Assembly: GCF_013002705.1 (NCBI RefSeq)
Contig: NZ_JABEND010000009.1
Location: forward strand, 62,001 to 126,000
DNA length: 64,000 bases
From: Nakamurella aerolata
GTDB taxonomy: Bacteria > Actinomycetota > Actinomycetes > Mycobacteriales > Nakamurellaceae
Direction: 5' to 3'
In this document: piece after piece, positions 8,503-32,534 of the stretch
Position numbering within the stretch: position 1 is the first letter of the stretch
Layout of the letters: every line of letters starts with the position of its first letter
Made by a program: the position numbers and the translations under genes
Notes under the pieces: generated by a model
The model's database searches: none
Told to the model about the DNA's origin: nothing
Seen by the model: the letters and a program-made list of their open reading frames with translations, nothing else

Positions 8503-10284
8503 TCAGCGCCCGTCGACGGTGATGGCGGTGACGGTGGCGTCGAGCGGGTCGGCGAAGTAGTCGGGATCGGCCAGTTCGATGCTCACCGGAGTCACCTCCC
8601 CAACCGGATAGCTCAAGCCGGCGACCGGACCGGCGGACAGCTGCGCACCGGTGGCGACGACGCTGGAGTCGCCGACCCGCACCCGGTAGGCGGTGCCGGG
8701 AGCGAAGGTGCCTTCGACCCGCACCGAGGCCTGGCGCCGTTCCGAGCCGTCGGCGGCGGTGTCGGCGAACCAGCCGGTCTGTCGAAGCGCTTGGGCGCCA
8801 GCATCTTTCGGGCTGTACGTTGCGGTCAGCCCGGTCTCGGTGATGGTGAAGAGCTGATCGGCGCCGCGCACCAGGGTCTCGGGGATGACGAGCGGGGCGC
8901 CAACCGTGCTCACCTTGATCACCGGCAGGTCGGGGTCGGTCGGCTGCGACGGCAGGGTGACGACCAACTCGGTGCCGTCGGCGCCCTGCATCCGGTACGG
9001 CAGGGCGGTGCCGGTGCCGTCGACGGTCACCGAGCGGACCGGGCTGCCGACGCCAGGCAGCCGAATGTCGCCACCGCCGGCCGGCCACTTCTGCACCCCG
9101 AGGTAGATGGCGTCGCCCTTGACGGTGCTGTCGCCCCAGGCCTGCCGCCCGTATCGGGTGGCACTCGCATCGAGCACGGCGTCGGGGTGCCGCTGGTTCC
9201 AGGCGCCGATGCCCGAAAACACCGCTGCGTCAAAGGGATCGATGGATCCATCGCCCTTGGGACCGACGTTGAGCAGGTAGTTGCCGCCGCCGGAGATCAC
9301 CGTGAACAGGTGGTTGACCAGCGTGCGCACCTTCACCGGCAGGTTGGCAGCGCTGCGGTCGGCCCGGCTCCAACTGCAGTAGCCCCAGCAGAACGAGAAC
9401 ACCGACTCGGCCGACTGCCACGGGCCTTGCAGCTGCTTCGCGGGGACGAAGTTGTCGCCGCCCACCTCGAAATCGCCCTTGTCGTTCCATACCCTCGAGT
9501 TCACCATCGCGGTCGGTTGGTAGCGGTGCACGGTGGCCGCCATCGCCGCGCTCTGCTCGGCGGTCGGCGCGCCCATGTCGAACCAGATCTCGTCGAGAGT
9601 GCCGTAGCGGGTGAGGATCTCGCGCAATTGCGACTGGATGTACGGCATCATGTCTGCCGGAATCGGGTTGGTGTTGTTGTATGGCTTCGGGGTCTGCTTG
9701 GTCCAGTCGATGATCGAGAAGTACAGGCCGAAGCCGAGTCCCTGGCTACGGCAGGCCCGGCTGAGCTCGGCAATCGGGTCACGCCGCAGCGCCGACGCCG
9801 CGGTGATGTTGTAGTCGGTGGTGTGGGTGTTCCACATCGCGAAGCCGTCGTGGTGCTTTGAGGTGAGCACCAGGTACTTCGCGCCCGCTGCCTTGGCGGT
9901 GGCGCACCACTGCTGCGGGTCGAACTTCTCCGCATCGAACGAGGCGGCGGTGTTCAAGTAGTCCGAGGTCGGGATGTTCATCCAGGCCTTGATCTGTTCC
10001 GGGTAGCCGATCTTCTGCTGCTGGCCCTGGTAGAAGCCGCCGTGGTTGGAGTAGATGCCCCAGTGCACAAACATGCCGAATTGAAGTTTCTGCCAGGCGG
10101 CGATCTTCGGGTCGGCGCTGCGTCCGATCGCAGCCAGGTAGCCTTTGATGCCCTCGCCGGCGGCAGCGACGGGGTGACCGGCGGTGCCGGCGCCGCTGCT
10201 CGGGGCAGCCATCGCGGTTCCTCCCATCACGCCGATCGATACCAGCAACCCGAGTACGGCCAGCACCACCGCGTGCCTTTTCAC
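8503..10284 (-). CDS. Secreted GH29 alpha-L-fucosidase
   Basis: 593 residues with a signal peptide (1-27, ending TAMAA). GH29 enzymes release terminal alpha-L-fucose by a retaining mechanism. Family features are LQFGMFVHWGIYSNHGG (about 67-83), the substrate-binding KHHDGFAMWNT (about 140) and EIWFDMGAP (about 235), whose Asp is the expected nucleophile. A beta-sandwich domain follows from about 370, and an Ig-like C-terminal part reaches the end. The GH92 alpha-mannosidase gene follows on the same strand after a 115-bp gap that holds a separate promoter. The pair suggests growth on fucosylated, mannose-containing glycans. Confidence 0.9.
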   Translation of the reverse strand: MKRHAVVLAVLGLLVSIGVMGGTAMAAPSSGAGTAGHPVAAAGEGIKGYLAAIGRSADPKIAAWQKLQFGMFVHWGIYSNHGGFYQGQQQKIGYPEQIKAWMNIPTSDYLNTAASFDAEKFDPQQWCATAKAAGAKYLVLTSKHHDGFAMWNTHTTDYNITAASALRRDPIAELSRACRSQGLGFGLYFSIIDWTKQTPKPYNNTNPIPADMMPYIQSQLREILTRYGTLDEIWFDMGAPTAEQSAAMAATVHRYQPTAMVNSRVWNDKGDFEVGGDNFVPAKQLQGPWQSAESVFSFCWGYCSWSRADRSAANLPVKVRTLVNHLFTVISGGGNYLLNVGPKGDGSIDPFDAAVFSGIGAWNQRHPDAVLDASATRYGRQAWGDSTVKGDAIYLGVQKWPAGGGDIRLPGVGSPVRSVTVDGTGTALPYRMQGADGTELVVTLPSQPTDPDLPVIKVSTVGAPLVIPETLVRGADQLFTITETGLTATYSPKDAGAQALRQTGWFADTAADGSERRQASVRVEGTFAPGTAYRVRVGDSSVVATGAQLSAGPVAGLSYPVGEVTPVSIELADPDYFADPLDATVTAITVDGR

Positions 10285-10741: not shown

Positions 10742-10823
10742 TGGTACGGCAAACGATAGCGGACGCCTGCGGGCGGGCGGCCAAAGGCGCAGGTATCGGC
10801 GGGCGGAGCCGGTGTGTGCCCAC

Positions 10824-10829
10824 TAAAAT
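10824..10829 (+). promoter_or_regulatory. Candidate -10 box of the AfsR-like gene
   Basis: TAAAAT at 10824-10829 is the only AT-rich hexamer in this stretch and lies 44 nt before the ATG at 10874. No clear -35 is seen. Confidence 0.4.
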
Positions 10830-10873
10830 CTGAGCCGTCCACAGCGTGGAATCCGACGACGGGGGCGTCCGGC

Positions 10874-13747
10874 ATGCGGGTGCGGGTGTTGGGCCCTATC
10901 GAGGTGCACGACGGCACCTCGTGGGTACCGGCTGGGCCGGCCAAGTGTCGCGCCGTGCTGTTGTGCCTCGTCGCGCACGCACCCGACGTGGTGTCGGTGG
11001 AGCAGCTCATCGACGAGGTCTGGGGACAGACCGCTCCGACGTCGGCGATGACGCAGGTTCACGGGTACACCATGCGGCTGCGCCGGTCGCTGGGCCGCGA
11101 CGGCGACTCCATCGTGCAAACGGCCAAGCCGGGATACCGATTCACCCGTCCCGAAGCCGTTGATGCCAGCGTCTTCGCGAACGAGGTGTCCAAGGGGTCC
11201 GAGCAGCTCCGAGCCGGCGACGTCGATGGTGCACGCGAAATCATCGACCACGCTCTTGCGCTGTGGCGGAGCGCGCCGGACGGAGCACTGCTCGGCAGCC
11301 CGCGGGCCTCGGGCTGGCTTGAGAGTCTGCAAGAACTGCATTGCCGCGCAAGAGAAATGCGGATCGACGGTGCGATCCGTGCCGGCCGGCACGCCGACGT
11401 GATCGCCGATATCCGCGGTCAGCTTGCTGTCGACCCGCTCCGGGAACAGTGGTGGCGGCTGCTTCTGGTGGCGCTGCACCGCAGCGGGCGGCAGGCCGAG
11501 GCGCTCGCCGAGTATCAACGGCTCCGGTTGATGCTTGCCGACGAGCTGGGTACCGAACCAGGGGCGTCGCTGCAATCGGTGCACCAGCAGATCCTGCAGG
11601 GCACCCTGCCGATGCGGGATGAGGCGGAGGCAACGCAGGCGCATGCCGATCAGCGGCCAGCCACGCAGGGTGACCCCGAGCCGGTGCGTCAACTGCCGGC
11701 AGCAACGGCCGACTTCACCGGGCGACGGGATGCCGTGCAGCACATCGTCGATCAACTGTTGTCGGCCGGGCAGCGGGCATCGCCGCCGATCGTGGTGGTG
11801 CACGGTGCTCCGGGCACCGGAAAGACCGCGTTGGCGGTGCAGGCTGCCAGGGCCGCGGCGGACGCATTTCCTGATGCTCAGTTGTATCTGGCGTTGGACG
11901 GGACGGCGGAGCGATGCCGCCAGCCGCACGAGATCCAGGCCGACCTGCTGTTCGCGCTCGGCGTGCACGGCGCCAACCTGCCCCCGACCACCGCCGCGCG
12001 GGCAGCGTTGGTCCGGAGTCGGCTGGCCGGCCGGCGGGCGTTACTGGTGCTGGACGATGCCGGGTCGGAGGAACAGATTCGCTCCGTGCTTCCGCCGGAC
12101 GGCGCCAGCGCGGTTCTGGTCACCACCAGGCGCATCTTCACGATGCTGCCGGGCAGCACGCATGTCGAGCTCGGTCCGCTTCCCGACGATGAGGCGCTTG
12201 AGCTGCTGGCGTCGGTGGTCGGCCGCGACCGGATCGACCGCGAACTGCCGGCGGCGAGGGCTATCGTCGCGGCCTGCGGCAGACTTCCGCTCAGTGTCCG
12301 GATCGCCGGCGGCAAGCTGCTCGCCCGCCCGCGGTGGCCGCTTTCCGTTCTGTGCCAGCGGCTTTCCGACGAGACCAGGCGTTTGCACGAAATGACGCTG
12401 GGCGACCTGGACGTGCGGGCCAGCGTCGAGCTGTCGCTGCGGGCGTTGCCGGAGCCGGCACTGCGCGCGTTCTGTCTGCTCGGATCGCTTGGGCCGCAGA
12501 GCTTTCCCGGCTGGATCATGCGGCCGCTGCTGGATTGCGACGACGCCACCGACATGCTCGAGGTTCTGGTGGATGTGAACCTTGTCCAGCTGATGGATTC
12601 GGATCCGCTCGGGCAACCCCGGTATCAGCTGCACGACCTGCTGGCGGCCTGCGCGGTGGAGCGCGGGCGGGAGCTGGCCGGCGACGACGTCCGCCGCGCC
12701 TTCGAACGTCTGCTCGCCGGGTGGCTGTGGATGGTGCAACAGGCCAACAAACGGTTACCCCCCAGCTTGTTCGAGCCGATCGGCGATGCCGCACCCTTCC
12801 CGGCGGCGCCGGTGCCCGGCGGCGAGCAACTGGTCGCCGATCCCCTTGCCTGGTTCGACGCCGAACGTCGCTGCCTGCTGGCAGCCGTGCGGCTGGCCGC
12901 CGAGCAGCAGCTGCCCGGCGCGTGCATCGCGTTGACCACCCACCTGGTTCCCGGCTACGACCACCGCGCCAGGTTCGACGATTGGCACAGCACGCATCTG
13001 ATCGCGACGCAGGTGAGCGACCCTGGCGGGATCGCTGGTGCCGCAGTGCTTCTGGGCCTGGCGCAGACCCACATGTACCGCGGCCGGATCGACACCGCGT
13101 GGGACCTGCTGCAGAACGCCTTGCAGACCTTCGACAAGGCGGGGCACCGGCGCGGCCGCGCGCATGCCTATGCCGGCATGGTCACCGCGAGCCGGTTGGT
13201 CAACGATCTCGACAGAGCCTCGTACTATCTGACGCCGGCGCTGCAGGACGCCACCGCGGCCGGCGATCTCACCCTGCGAGCCATCCTGCTCTGTGCCCGC
13301 GGCAAGTTGTTGACCTGCCAGGGACGGGTGGCACAGGCCGAACCCTGGTTCCGGCAAGCACTGTCGATGGCCCGCAGCGCGGGTGACACGCACCGGGAGG
13401 CCGTCGTCCTGCGCGAGCAGGCGGTGATGTTGCACGCGCGCGGAGATTCCCGTCAGGCGCTGGCCGGTCTGCACGCCGCCGCCGAAACCCTCGCCGATAT
13501 CGGCGATCATCACTGCAGGGCGCTGGCGCTGCTGTGCATCGCGCAGGTGCACGCCGACCGCGGTGACGAGCGTGATGCCAACGCCGCGGCCCGGCAGGCG
13601 GCGACCGTGATCGACAAGGCCGAGCTGCCGATCGACGGACTGGACATCACCTCGCCGCCGGACTGGCGGCAGTCTGCGTCGTGGGATCTGTTGCAGCGGC
13701 AGGGTTATCCGATTCCGTTGTACCGGAACGGCGCGAAGGTTCCGTGA
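10874..13747 (+). CDS. AfsR/SARP-type transcriptional regulator with NTPase and TPR domains
   Basis: 957 residues from ATG at 10874 (MRVRVLGP, the usual start of this family). An upstream in-frame ATG at 10814 would precede the -10 candidate and is rejected. Domains are an OmpR-type winged helix (1-92), a bacterial transcriptional activation domain (about 95-245), an NB-ARC/STAND ATPase with FTGR (about 280) and P-loop GAPGTGKTA (about 312), and helical repeats of TPR type to the end. Such proteins activate nearby secondary-metabolite or developmental genes in response to NTP and protein partners. Its 3' end overlaps the convergent NlpC/P60-like gene by 43 bp. No biosynthetic cluster adjoins it, so a role for the facing cell-wall genes is only a suggestion. 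Confidence 0.9.
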   Translation: MRVRVLGPIEVHDGTSWVPAGPAKCRAVLLCLVAHAPDVVSVEQLIDEVWGQTAPTSAMTQVHGYTMRLRRSLGRDGDSIVQTAKPGYRFTRPEAVDASVFANEVSKGSEQLRAGDVDGAREIIDHALALWRSAPDGALLGSPRASGWLESLQELHCRAREMRIDGAIRAGRHADVIADIRGQLAVDPLREQWWRLLLVALHRSGRQAEALAEYQRLRLMLADELGTEPGASLQSVHQQILQGTLPMRDEAEATQAHADQRPATQGDPEPVRQLPAATADFTGRRDAVQHIVDQLLSAGQRASPPIVVVHGAPGTGKTALAVQAARAAADAFPDAQLYLALDGTAERCRQPHEIQADLLFALGVHGANLPPTTAARAALVRSRLAGRRALLVLDDAGSEEQIRSVLPPDGASAVLVTTRRIFTMLPGSTHVELGPLPDDEALELLASVVGRDRIDRELPAARAIVAACGRLPLSVRIAGGKLLARPRWPLSVLCQRLSDETRRLHEMTLGDLDVRASVELSLRALPEPALRAFCLLGSLGPQSFPGWIMRPLLDCDDATDMLEVLVDVNLVQLMDSDPLGQPRYQLHDLLAACAVERGRELAGDDVRRAFERLLAGWLWMVQQANKRLPPSLFEPIGDAAPFPAAPVPGGEQLVADPLAWFDAERRCLLAAVRLAAEQQLPGACIALTTHLVPGYDHRARFDDWHSTHLIATQVSDPGGIAGAAVLLGLAQTHMYRGRIDTAWDLLQNALQTFDKAGHRRGRAHAYAGMVTASRLVNDLDRASYYLTPALQDATAAGDLTLRAILLCARGKLLTCQGRVAQAEPWFRQALSMARSAGDTHREAVVLREQAVMLHARGDSRQALAGLHAAAETLADIGDHHCRALALLCIAQVHADRGDERDANAAARQAATVIDKAELPIDGLDITSPPDWRQSASWDLLQRQGYPIPLYRNGAKVP

Positions 13748-14583
13748 CCTGGGAAGTACGGGTAAGAGATCTGCCGGTACTTGGCGCCACTGGGATCGCC
13801 AGGGGTTGACTCGTAACCCCAGTACGCGGTCTGTGCGGCGTCCGCCCACTTCTCGAACAACACCACATGCCCGTCGGCGCCGGCCGCCTTGTTGAGCAGT
13901 ACGTCACCGGCCTGCAGGTCGCTCTTGGCGATGTCGTGGCCGATCCGCCACATTTCGTTGGTCGGGTAGCCAGGTGCCGGCGCGTTCCATGCCATGGAGA
14001 CGTATCCGGAGCAGTCCTGCCGGTAGCCCTGGTAGACCTTGTCCATGCTGTAGGGGACGCGCGGGTTCAACCAGGTCTGGGCCCGCCGGATCACCTCGGC
14101 CCTGCTGATCGCGGCTCCGATGCGGTGGCTGGCGTTGTTGTTCTTCAACGTCGCGTTCAGATTCTGCTTCGCACCAGCAGCGAAACTCTGGGTAGCACCA
14201 CCGAAACCGGTATTGAAGAACACCGTCACCGTCTGACCGGTGCGATTCCACACCGACGCCGCCTCGTTCTTGATACACAACCCCTGCCCAGCACCCGCCC
14301 CCTTGAAGTCGTAACACGACGGCTGCGTCGTCCCGTAATCACCCACCGACTCGGTGAAGTCAGACACCGACCCCTGATGATCACTGTTGTAGAAATAGCA
14401 GAACTCCCCCTCCTCACACACACCATTACGCGGGGTGCCGGCCTGCGCGGCGGAGTCAGTGGCGGCGGACGCGGCGGCGGCGCCAGCAGCCGTGCCAGGT
14501 ATCGCCGTTCCGAGCAGAAGCGTTGGGGCAACGGCGATCAGCGCCAGGCAGCGCCGCGATGTGGTTCGGACGGTCGGGTGCAT
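13705..14583 (-). CDS. Exported I36-type domain fused to NlpC/P60-like hydrolase
   Basis: 292 residues with AGGAG ahead of ATG at 14583. A signal peptide covers about 1-35. Residues 50-156 form a Cys-rich module starting NGVCEEGEFCYFYNS, matching the peptidase-inhibitor I36 (SMPI-like) pattern. Residues about 160-292 look like an NlpC/P60 papain-fold peptidase: DCSGYVSMAW supplies the catalytic Cys (about 191) and DGHVVLFEKW the His (about 240). It is expected to cut peptidoglycan peptides outside the cell. The I36 module is 99% identical in DNA to that of the next gene upstream. The stop lies 43 bp inside the convergent regulator gene. What the I36 module does here (inhibition, wall binding, protection) is unknown. 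Confidence 0.82.
   Translation of the reverse strand: MHPTVRTTSRRCLALIAVAPTLLLGTAIPGTAAGAAAASAATDSAAQAGTPRNGVCEEGEFCYFYNSDHQGSVSDFTESVGDYGTTQPSCYDFKGAGAGQGLCIKNEAASVWNRTGQTVTVFFNTGFGGATQSFAAGAKQNLNATLKNNNASHRIGAAISRAEVIRRAQTWLNPRVPYSMDKVYQGYRQDCSGYVSMAWNAPAPGYPTNEMWRIGHDIAKSDLQAGDVLLNKAAGADGHVVLFEKWADAAQTAYWGYESTPGDPSGAKYRQISYPYFPGHGTFAPFRYNGIG
14117..14436. repeat. 320-bp duplicated I36 module, copy 1
   Basis: This stretch matches 15169-15488 over 320 bp in the same orientation. I see only two differences (G/A and C/T). Similarity stops sharply at both ends, at the junctions with signal-peptide and catalytic-domain sequence. Base composition is visibly less G+C-rich than the neighbours. Confidence 0.95.
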
Positions 14584-14649
14584 GAGGCTCTCCTGGTAAG
14601 GCTCGTTCTGGAACTCGGGTGGCTGCTGGGTCGGGGCTGGGCCGTTCCC

Positions 14650-14694
14650 GGGAGCGCCGGGTGGCCGGCCGCCGACCGGTCACCCGACGCTCCC
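14650..14694 (-). terminator. Hairpin between the two I36 genes
   Basis: GGGAGCGCCGGGTG (14650-14663) pairs with CACCCGACGCTCCC (14681-14694) with one mismatch. The 17-nt loop can fold further (CCGG/CCGG). It lies 24 nt after the stop of the M23-containing gene on the minus strand. There is no T-run, as is common for actinobacterial terminators. Confidence 0.65.
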
Positions 14695-14717
14695 CGTTCA
14701 CGCGAGGTCGGCTGCCA

Positions 14718-15581
14718 TCAAGGGCAGGACGACCGGCGCTGCAGGTTGGTTGTGCCCCAGTACACCGGGTTCCCGTCGACAAAGGTGACGCGCTGCAGGG
14801 CACCGTTGAGCTTCTGCTCGTAGTGCAGGTGCGGCCCGCTGGACTTACCGGTGGTGCCGACCCGCCCGATCATCGTCCGCTCGGTGACGTACTGCCCCCG
14901 TGACACGTTCTGCGCACTCAGGTGCGCGTACAGCGTCTGCCAGCCGCCACCGTGGTCGATCACGATGTACCGCCCGTAAGAGGTGTCCCCCAGGTTGCCG
15001 ACAACAGTCACCGTGCCGGGCTTGGAGGCGTAGACCTTCCAGCCGGCGTCGTCCGGATAGTGGTTGAAGTCAACGGCGTTCGGCGGGCTGTGGTAGCTCC
15101 TGGTCGCGGCTTCCCAGACCTCACCGCACGGGAACGGCAGCAGGAATCCGGATGGCGAGCCGCCACCGCCGATGCGATGGCTGGCGTTGTTGTTCTTCAA
15201 CGTCGCGTTCAGATTCTGCTTCGCACCAGCAGCGAAATTCTGGGTAGCACCACCGAAACCGGTATTGAAGAACACCGTCACCGTCTGACCGGTGCGATTC
15301 CACACCGACGCCGCCTCGTTCTTGATACACAACCCCTGCCCAGCACCCGCCCCCTTGAAGTCGTAACACGACGGCTGCGTCGTCCCGTAATCACCCACCG
15401 ACTCGGTGAAGTCAGACACCGACCCCTGATGATCACTGTTGTAGAAATAGCAGAACTCCCCCTCCTCACACACACCATTACGCGGGGTAGCAGCCTGCGC
15501 CGTCGTGGCGCCGAAACTCATTCCGGCACCGACCATCAGCGCGAGTGTTCCCAGTGCGGCAAGACGCTTCGCCAGTCTCAT
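14718..15581 (-). CDS. Exported I36-type domain fused to M23 metallopeptidase
   Basis: 287 residues from ATG at 15581 (MRLAKRL...), preceded by GGAAAGGA. A longer in-frame reading upstream has no signal peptide and is rejected. The signal peptide is about 1-30, ending TAQAA. The I36-type module is at 32-138 and an M23 (LytM-like) domain follows to the end. Zinc ligands appear as the His of SYHSPPNAVDF, its Asp 7 residues later, and HLH in GPHLHYE. The wide His-to-Asp spacing resembles LasA rather than the usual HxxxD. It likely cleaves peptide bridges in peptidoglycan. A hairpin separates it from the downstream NlpC/P60-like gene. Confidence 0.85.
   Translation of the reverse strand: MRLAKRLAALGTLALMVGAGMSFGATTAQAATPRNGVCEEGEFCYFYNSDHQGSVSDFTESVGDYGTTQPSCYDFKGAGAGQGLCIKNEAASVWNRTGQTVTVFFNTGFGGATQNFAAGAKQNLNATLKNNNASHRIGGGGSPSGFLLPFPCGEVWEAATRSYHSPPNAVDFNHYPDDAGWKVYASKPGTVTVVGNLGDTSYGRYIVIDHGGGWQTLYAHLSAQNVSRGQYVTERTMIGRVGTTGKSSGPHLHYEQKLNGALQRVTFVDGNPVYWGTTNLQRRSSCP
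15169..15488. repeat. 320-bp duplicated I36 module, copy 2
   Basis: Partner of 14117-14436, with two mismatches in 320 bp. The near identity, including silent positions, implies very recent duplication or ongoing gene conversion. Confidence 0.95.
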
Positions 15582-15664: not shown

Positions 15665-16513
15665 TCATCCACGGTTGCGCAGATACTGCTCCCAGGTGAG
15701 CTTCTCCACCTGCGGACCGTCGTCAGGGCCTTGGCCGGACAAGCCGTTGCGGCCGAGGTAGTACTGCCCGATCTGCTGTTGAGCGGGCCGGGCCAGGTCG
15801 GTGTCGTTGCCGGCCACCACGTGCAGGTGATACGGCCACGCCGGGTGTTGCGCCGGTGTCCGCAGCCAGGCGGCGAAGCCGACGCTGCGCAGGGCGACGA
15901 GCGCCGAGGTGCGCTGGGCGCGGGTCAACGCGTCGGCGTCGAGGTCGGCGGTGCCGCCGCCGTCGTGGGTGCCGGCCGAGGTGGGGTCCGTTCCGGGCGA
16001 GTACGAGCCCTGGTCGACAGCGAAGGTCAGGCCGCAGAGACGTTCGGCTTCCAGCAGCATGTCGACGGTGCGGGTGTTGAAGGGGTAGCCACGCCAGCTC
16101 ACCCTGGAACCGGGCCGCACCACCCTGGACAGGGTGAAGCGGCCGGATCCCAGGGTGGTGAGCGACGCGACGCCGGGGAGTCCGTTGGCGGCCAGCCCGC
16201 TGTGGCCCAGCGACTTCTGCCACTGGGCGTAGGCATCGATGCTGGCCGTCCCGAAATGGCCGTCGACATACCGGGCGCGCAGCAGCCCGCGGTCGGCAAG
16301 GGCCTGCTCGACCAGGCGCACGCTCTCGCCGGCACCCGGCCAGATCGGCGTGCCCTGCTGCACCGGGTTGATCTGCGCAGCGAGCAGCAGCAGTTCCATG
16401 TCGACCACCGGGAGCGCAGCCTGCGCCGACGCTGGGCGCAGCCCCGTTGCGGCAGCCGTGCCCACCGCCAGCGCCGAGGCCAGCACTGCTCTGCGGTGCA
16501 TTTGAGCTGCCAT
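15665..16513 (-). CDS. Exported peptidoglycan-binding M15-like peptidase
   Basis: 282 residues from ATG at 16513, with GAGGA about 8 nt upstream; an ATG at 16501 is possible. The N-terminus (HRRAVLASALAVG) looks like a Tat or Sec signal. Residues about 60-110 resemble a peptidoglycan-binding domain (YVDGHFGTASIDAYAQWQK). The C-terminal half has GTHDGGGTADLD and, later, PYHLHVV, which fit the His, Asp and His zinc ligands of M15 carboxypeptidase/endopeptidase-type enzymes. Membership is by motif only. It is the first of three exported wall-hydrolase genes on this strand, 83 bp before the M23 gene. Confidence 0.65.
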   Translation of the reverse strand: MAAQMHRRAVLASALAVGTAAATGLRPASAQAALPVVDMELLLLAAQINPVQQGTPIWPGAGESVRLVEQALADRGLLRARYVDGHFGTASIDAYAQWQKSLGHSGLAANGLPGVASLTTLGSGRFTLSRVVRPGSRVSWRGYPFNTRTVDMLLEAERLCGLTFAVDQGSYSPGTDPTSAGTHDGGGTADLDADALTRAQRTSALVALRSVGFAAWLRTPAQHPAWPYHLHVVAGNDTDLARPAQQQIGQYYLGRNGLSGQGPDDGPQVEKLTWEQYLRNRG

Positions 16514-31494: not shown

Positions 31495-32490
31495 ATGGTG
31501 AAGTTCAACGAGGGCGCGCAGCTGGACACCTCGCAGGTGCAGGACAACCGGGGCGCCGGTGGCGGCGGTGGTTTCGGCGGCGGCGGCTTCGGTGGCGGCG
31601 GCTTCGGCGGCGGCGGAATGGGCATCCCGATCGGCAAGGCCGGCGGCGGGCTCGGTCTGATCGTGGTGCTGATCCTGGTCGGCATCCAGCTCTTCGGCGG
31701 CAAGTTCGGCGGCGGCAATGCCAGCGGTTCGCCGATTCCCAGCTCGCTCAGCCAGGCCGCCGACCAGAACGGCGGCGCGGTGGGCAGTGGCTCGCTGGCC
31801 GAGGAGTGCAGGACCGGCGCCGACGCCAACACCAAGGATCCGTGTGCGGTGGTCGCCTTCATCAACTCCACGCAGAACTACTGGGCGGACGAGTTCCAGC
31901 GCAGCGGATCGCAATACCAGGACGCGACGACGGTGTTCTACACCGGTCAGACCGCTACCGGCTGCGGCACCGGCAGCGCCGGGATGGGGCCGTTCTACTG
32001 CCCGGCCGACCAGCGGGTGTACATCGACCTGAGCTTCTGGGACACCTTGAAGAACCAGTTCGGCACCTCGGGCGGCACCTTCGCCGAGGGCTACGTGTTG
32101 GCGCACGAGTACGGACACCACGTGCAAAACCTGCTCGGTACCGAATCGAAGGCGTCCGACGGCAGCACCGGACCCACCTCGAACTCGGTGCGGCTGGAGC
32201 TGCAGGCCGACTGCTACGCCGGCGCCTGGGCCAAGAACGCCACCACCGTTCCGGGCGAGGACGGCCAGATCCTGATCAGCGACATCACCCAGGACGACAT
32301 CAACGCGGCGCTGGACACCGCCTCGAAGATCGGCGACGACTATATCCAGAGCAAGCTGGGCGGCGGCTCCGTCGATCCGTCGCAGTTCACCCACGGCACC
32401 TCGGCGCAGCGCGAGAAGTGGTTCAACGCCGGCTATACCTCGGGTCAACCCGCCAGCTGCGACACCTTCTCCACCGACAACCTGGGTTGA
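31495..32490 (+). CDS. Neutral zinc metallopeptidase (YpfJ-like)
   Basis: 331 residues from ATG at 31495, with GAGGAG upstream. Residues about 18-42 are four Gly/Phe-rich units (GGGGF), followed by one membrane helix (LGLIVVLILVGIQLF, about 55-70). The extracytoplasmic peptidase domain has the zinc motif HEYGHH and downstream ELQADCYAGAW, as in the putative neutral zinc metallopeptidase family. The biological substrate of this family is poorly known. The stop codon is inside a 14-bp tandem repeat. Confidence 0.9.
   Translation: MVKFNEGAQLDTSQVQDNRGAGGGGGFGGGGFGGGGFGGGGMGIPIGKAGGGLGLIVVLILVGIQLFGGKFGGGNASGSPIPSSLSQAADQNGGAVGSGSLAEECRTGADANTKDPCAVVAFINSTQNYWADEFQRSGSQYQDATTVFYTGQTATGCGTGSAGMGPFYCPADQRVYIDLSFWDTLKNQFGTSGGTFAEGYVLAHEYGHHVQNLLGTESKASDGSTGPTSNSVRLELQADCYAGAWAKNATTVPGEDGQILISDITQDDINAALDTASKIGDDYIQSKLGGGSVDPSQFTHGTSAQREKWFNAGYTSGQPASCDTFSTDNLG
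31560..31617. repeat. 15-nt coding repeats (Gly-Gly-Gly-Gly-Phe)
   Basis: About four imperfect 15-nt units of the type GGCGGCGGCTTCGGC encode a Gly/Phe tail before the membrane helix of the metallopeptidase. Confidence 0.8.
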
Positions 32491-32534
32491 TCAGGCTGGG
32501 TTGATCAGGCTGGGTTGATCGGCTGGGCTGATCC
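32483..32534. repeat. 14-bp tandem repeat across the metallopeptidase stop codon
   Basis: TGGGTTGATCAGGC is present at 32483-32496 and 32497-32510, followed by a 13-bp unit and a partial unit. The TGA stop is in the first unit. Located between convergent genes. Confidence 0.85.

Follow-up and report, generated by a model that had tools for sequence, protein, structure and literature searches.

The I36 family (Pfam PF03995) is named after a protease inhibitor, and microbial βγ-crystallins include protein S, spherulin 3a, clostrillin and vibrillin. One source on the latter (PMC3551895) gives N/D-N/D-X-X-S/T-S as the canonical calcium motif. PG_binding_1, SH3 and LysM are non-catalytic domains that sit on different types of catalytic domain and occur in several copies in some enzymes. 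Polymorphic toxins combine constant N-terminal parts with variable C-terminal parts. In the 64,000-nucleotide stretch of Nakamurella aerolata DNA analyzed here (the window), two adjacent genes share a secreted module that can be compared with all of these. Both copies match the I36 family at twice its curated cut-off (45.4 and 45.3 bits against 21.1), but modules of this kind are fused to wall hydrolases, often in tandem, and some proteins have several. In contrast to the microbial βγ-crystallins, the module serves as part of an enzyme, has four invariant cysteines in an alignment of 145 modules, and carries the canonical calcium motif in none of the 145; a relaxed motif without the last serine is found in 131 of them, and identity as a calcium-binding crystallin was rejected because of the missing canonical form. 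The module resembles PG_binding_1, SH3 and LysM in the three traits named above, and PG_binding_1 or SH3-like parts replace it on related catalytic domains; however, its fold is unrelated to theirs, it is N-terminal in the proteins read, and its binding to the wall is something that we infer. A constant front module with varying catalytic ends is also the layout of polymorphic toxin systems, whereas no delivery domains and, among the conserved neighbors, no immunity genes were recognized. We propose that it is a crystallin-type wall-targeting module common to actinobacterial hydrolases, homogenized and partner-swapped by recombination, a reading to which we would give a probability of about 0.62. 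The features of the locus are given below.

10814-13747, plus strand: SARP/AfsR-type regulator (BTAD, NB-ARC, TPR; Pfam), convergent with the cluster
13705-14583, minus strand: secreted protein of 292 aa with an I36 module and an NlpC/P60-like cysteine peptidase part (Pfam, motifs)
14117-14436, minus strand: copy 1 of the shared 320-bp module (direct-repeat comparison)
14718-15581, minus strand: secreted protein of 287 aa, from the ATG at 15581, with an I36 module and an M23 metallopeptidase (Pfam, motifs)
15169-15488, minus strand: copy 2 of the shared 320-bp module (direct-repeat comparison; AlphaFold2 model of 15177-15485)
15665-16513, minus strand: secreted protein with a PG_binding_1-like domain and a LAS-type (M15/VanY-like) peptidase-like part, directly 5' of the pair

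The two copies lie in the same orientation at an offset of 1052, and base-by-base alignment confirms the near-identity claimed in the initial annotation: of the 320 positions only 14125 and 14186 differ, one change being silent and the other exchanging Ser and Asn. Beyond the block the identity is 15-60% per 20 bp, the background level on both sides, which agrees with the claim that the flanks are unrelated and that the segment ends at domain borders. The block comprises the Pfam I36 module and a few extra residues, corresponding to residues about 50-156 of the NlpC/P60-like protein and about 32-138 of the M23 protein if the latter starts at the ATG at 15581 (its longest open reading frame begins at 15668). 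In both proteins the module is N-terminal, behind different signal peptides that look unrelated. Outside the pair, recurring 24-mers on the plus strand of the window are limited to two overlapping ones at 32481-32496, where a short direct repeat has an offset of 14 bases; inverted 24-mers are absent from the whole window. Chance is excluded, since the pair is almost the only source of repeated 24-mers.

An assembly artefact would be a further source of such identity, and the ends of some contigs do fall within or near a module (L075, L117 and the one behind L128). Here, however, a single contig contains both copies, which have different flanks and differ from each other at two positions, and collapse of repeats would delete a copy and never add one. 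A Nonomuraea gerenzanensis replicon deposited as complete has a similarly arranged pair, identical over 327 bp except for two mismatches. We consider an artefact extremely improbable on account of the single contig with different flanks and of this independent replicon. With contigs ending in modules, assemblies may undercount tandem pairs.

The M23 domain scores 84.5 bits (Pfam cut-off 28.7) and has the metal-ligand motifs H..D and HLH. NLPC_P60 stays below its cut-off of 23 bits in the neighboring protein (19.6 bits over the full length, 21.2 when the catalytic part is scored by itself), although both the Cys (DCSG) and His (GHV) motifs are there; three scanned relatives of this part score 22.3, 24.3 and 27.0 bits, two of them above the cut-off, and one of the three carries PG_binding_1. 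The three minus-strand genes between 13705 and 16513 are separated by gaps of 83 and 134 bp, and the last 43 bp of the NlpC/P60-like gene overlap with the SARP-type gene.

The AlphaFold2 model of copy 2 (pLDDT 97.2) has the predicted fold of a two-Greek-key βγ-crystallin domain, and the structural matches listed are crystallins and crystallin-like domains. Greek-key signatures were found in both halves of the module, in 145 of 145 cases for each of two patterns, which had been fitted to these modules and so provide no independent evidence. Among solved structures, the module profile found just two entries, both of protein S (E 0.06 and 0.6), and a profile of stand-alone I36 proteins found ten sequences, with protein S first (E 0.008) and a 3hzb crystallin chain at E 1.9; one stand-alone I36 protein used as the sole query matched antibody-type chains. 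No solved I36-type inhibitor was matched by sequence or appeared among the fold matches listed, although such an absence excludes nothing. Mean amino-acid identity is higher in the module than in the attached part in all five classes, which does not hold for every species pair (93 of 153 CHAP and 70 of 105 NlpC-like pairs). Two tandem modules are carried by a single enzyme in L192 (VanY-like by eye) and four in L189 (NlpC/P60 by eye).

These properties bear on the possibility that the module acts as a true I36 protease inhibitor, shielding the secreted lysins or the cell. Besides the family scores, it is consistent with the pair at positions 53-54, which is Cys followed by Val (94 modules) or Ile (51) in 145 of 145 modules and may correspond to the reactive bond in SMPI, a Streptomyces inhibitor. 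The residues around this pair are nearly fixed, except at position 52, whereas contact loops of inhibitors usually vary. The crystallin matches and the lack of a sequence match to any solved I36-type inhibitor also argue against inhibition, as do four copies on one enzyme, though some inhibitor families repeat too, and we regard it as rather improbable. Reading the function from the I36 name, as the initial annotation had done, is not supported, given the predicted crystallin fold, the on average higher conservation of the module than of the enzymes, and the multi-copy enzymes. It had offered protection, inhibition and anchoring together; for the same reasons anchoring fits better than inhibition, and the other two are kept as rivals.

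The module might also be a folding helper, a stabilizer or an auto-inhibitory pro-part and not a binding module. Its place beside the signal peptide in the proteins read would suit such a role, and βγ-crystallin domains are known as stable. Yet the module serves unrelated catalytic folds, related M23 domains exist without it, and a single plug would have to suit metallo-, cysteine- and glycan-cutting sites alike, all of which makes this quite an improbable account.

A protein search of the window's own genome and 100 related genomes found two more genomes with tandem modules, on other catalytic domains. In a class sample of 296 genomes, which had not been picked for tandem copies, 40 had a match and 10 a strong one (E ≤ 1e-40). 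Five of the ten, including that of the window, have two whole modules within about 1.1 kb, and in a sixth the second module is cut near a contig end. A contig scan with the module alignment as query yielded 76 named loci, which come from the 80 best of 248 confirmed relatives. Counts below refer to 145 modules in 89 loci. Of 160 hits, 15 had been removed: seven because their four loci (L034, L120, L124, L129) duplicate others, two because they fall in a masked stretch of L076, four because the reading frame is truncated where a contig or fetched stretch ends (L075, L117, L125, L128), and two (L081, L083) as chance matches. It should be mentioned that loci were fetched by likeness to the window module, so that the sample is biased towards hydrolase-type modules.

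A further part follows the module in 142 of 145 cases, and these parts fall into 11 clusters. The partners are SpoIID (57), M23 type a (42), CHAP (18), an NlpC-like part (15), M23 type b (3) and GH25 (2), with single cases of the window's NlpC/P60, Phage_lysozyme2, a weakly VanY-like part (14.6 bits against 25) and one part without a Pfam match. SpoIID, M23, CHAP, GH25 and Phage_lysozyme2 exceed their Pfam cut-offs, and NLPC_P60 and VanY stay below theirs; the pattern of catalytic residues is absent from 3 of 18 CHAP, 1 of 15 NlpC-like, 1 of 3 M23 type b and 1 of 2 GH25 parts. The check proposed in the initial annotation, whether related genomes carry the module on other catalytic domains, thus had a positive outcome for several unrelated wall hydrolases. 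One module sits on a long protein that by its appearance is not a hydrolase (L083, Rugosimonospora africana), and three secreted modules have no further domain (L038, L039, L040). These cases imply that wall targeting is not the sole possible use. The window pair is one example of a wider pattern of modular wall hydrolases with exchangeable accessory domains, which is of a known kind; what makes it unusual is the crystallin fold, along with the clustering in tandem and the homogenization of modules. In L195 a gene with the module and M23 is broken by an in-frame stop, and in L201 a ricin-type lectin-like domain follows the module (by eye).

At least two modules are present in 55 of the 89 loci, and SpoIID, a lytic transglycosylase, in 52 of these 55. 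M23 type a precedes SpoIID in 30, the NlpC-like part precedes it in 13 and CHAP in 8, next to four other combinations, among them that of the window, the only one of the 89 loci to combine M23 with NlpC/P60. Directly upstream, 60 of 75 loci have a peptidase-like gene with a wall-binding-like domain. A gene with HTH and N_BRCA1_IG domains, as assigned from L044:3023-3859 alone, lies close to the cluster in 49 of 75 loci, with either orientation, and is possibly a regulator.

The constant N-terminal module, the varied catalytic C-terminal parts and the complementary bonds that they cut would also suit a secreted bacteriolytic set directed against other bacteria by a logic like that of polymorphic toxins, which is compatible with wall targeting. 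However, the conserved neighbors are the peptidase-like gene and the HTH and N_BRCA1_IG gene (one example scanned), no immunity gene was recognized among them, and self-remodeling during growth or spore release fits equally. Such a use in attack is unlikely in our assessment.

In the reading that we prefer, the 320-bp segment would encode a secreted βγ-crystallin-type domain acting as the common wall-targeting module of several peptidoglycan hydrolases, by binding a wall ligand. The genes form a side-by-side set, in which a LAS-type peptidase-like protein is followed by module-bearing cutters of other bonds, namely M23, CHAP or NlpC/P60 peptidases and mostly also SpoIID, and the enzymes presumably act together. 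Module copies in direct orientation would allow homologous recombination and with it recurrent homogenization within a genome, and recombination at the module may be the means by which catalytic domains are exchanged behind a constant module. If this is true, a domain named after a protease inhibitor becomes a wall-targeting part and a candidate targeting module for lysins, a gene cluster present in several actinobacterial families would be explained, and the loci would show, with unusual clarity, gene conversion acting in nature on a single domain of genes that are unrelated in other respects. A bolder form, tentative and on the doubtful side, is that the modules constitute an undescribed crystallin-fold family binding a wall ligand, in polymorphic lysin loci where gene conversion would keep the module uniform within each genome and thereby direct an entire set of complementary cutters to one receptor, while catalytic domains are swapped.

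Concerted evolution is shown in about half of the multi-module loci. Among 57 pairs, the median within-locus identity of modules is 0.90, with 15 pairs at 0.95 or more and one at 1.00, and the window pair is the second highest. The nearest relative of 111 modules in multi-copy loci is the own partner for 53, the same catalytic type elsewhere for 49 and another module for 9. In a quick, midpoint-rooted tree, the modules form exclusive sister groups in 27 of the 55 loci (SH-aLRT ≥ 87 for 25 of these) and do not in the other 28. At third codon positions, the pair is more similar than both modules are to those of the nearest species in 31 of 53 comparisons (L053 counted twice), comprising 19 of 31 for M23/SpoIID, 5 of 8 for CHAP/SpoIID and 7 of 14 for NlpC-like/SpoIID; it exceeds both catalytic domains of the nearest species in 14 of 31, 3 of 8 and 8 of 14, respectively. 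Where catalytic genes and gene order are common to species, the pair should be older than the similarity of its modules, and this indicates concerted evolution there. The median within-pair dN of 0.064 against a dS of 0.24 points to purifying selection on the modules. Directly 3' of the module the identity of the 57 pairs is at background at once, and on the 5' side its mean fades gradually through the signal peptide (0.61, 0.55, 0.47, then 0.29 and 0.28), so that the 5' boundary is less well defined over all pairs than it is in the window.

Homogenization is episodic, since modules track the catalytic type in ten Micromonospora M23a/SpoIID loci, being 81-86% identical within a locus and 92-98% to the best orthologue. 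The cassette-like exchange or conversion suggested in the initial annotation is thus supported in many genomes, and these ten loci supply the diverged orthologous modules named there as a refuting case. For the window itself, gene conversion is as good an explanation as a recent event in which a duplicated module captured the NlpC/P60 domain. One recent duplication before that domain, without continuing conversion, has close to an even chance: a fusion with the window's NlpC/P60 type occurs once in 145, none of seven translated relatives of this part (46 genomes matched in the sample of 296) has a module by eye, the signal peptides differ, and the module pair is absent from the 16 other genus genomes searched. 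Against it, homogenized pairs are frequent among species that share the catalytic genes and their order. As no second species with the window's two genes was found, the age of the identity cannot be dated.

Within the genus, the module itself is present in two of the 16 other genomes, G014 (with a different C-terminal part) and G016 (stand-alone), and 27 genomes in an order sample of 298 have it at E ≤ 1e-20. A viral contig scan gave 33 pattern matches, none of them confirmed, and 1 of 50,697 phage records matched, an unverified 5.9-kb faecal contig (L174, MT837995.1) with the module and an M23-like protein, which may well be a bacterial contig labelled as phage; a phage origin was rejected on these grounds. 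Plasmid-borne spread was likewise rejected, with the module in 6 of 72,556 plasmid records, one of them an 11.85-Mb replicon labelled as plasmid. GC3 is 0.73-0.74 in the window modules against a mean of 0.94 (lowest 0.35) in other modules, and among the 15 window genes listed it is 0.80 in the two module genes and 0.80-0.94 in the others except 0.63 and 0.66. Horizontal gain of the window cluster was set aside, as this contrast is suggestive at best. No paper pairing the module with wall hydrolases was among the literature matches listed, in a search that lay outside most subscription journals and possibly missed spelling variants.

Some further observations concern the same genome and the M23 enzymes. 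A third, weak I36 match (L003, C17:79043-79249, 23 bits) in the window's genome has no match with the module model at E 1e-5 or by tblastn. An alpha-L-fucosidase (Pfam) is encoded at 8503-10284 on the minus strand, and the fold matches of the module include two fungal GH29 fucosidase structures, which is probably a coincidence. M23 relatives without the module have SH3-like or unnamed C-terminal parts instead (by eye). Contig 1 of the same genome encodes a paralogue of the window M23 catalytic domain (L043, 59% identity) without the module and with proline-rich and repeated parts on its C-terminal side. Seven window-type M23 enzymes (L010, L017, L018, L019, L020, L022, L173) have in common an unnamed C-terminal module of ~90 residues with conserved Cys and a VKWGGSVG-like end (by eye).
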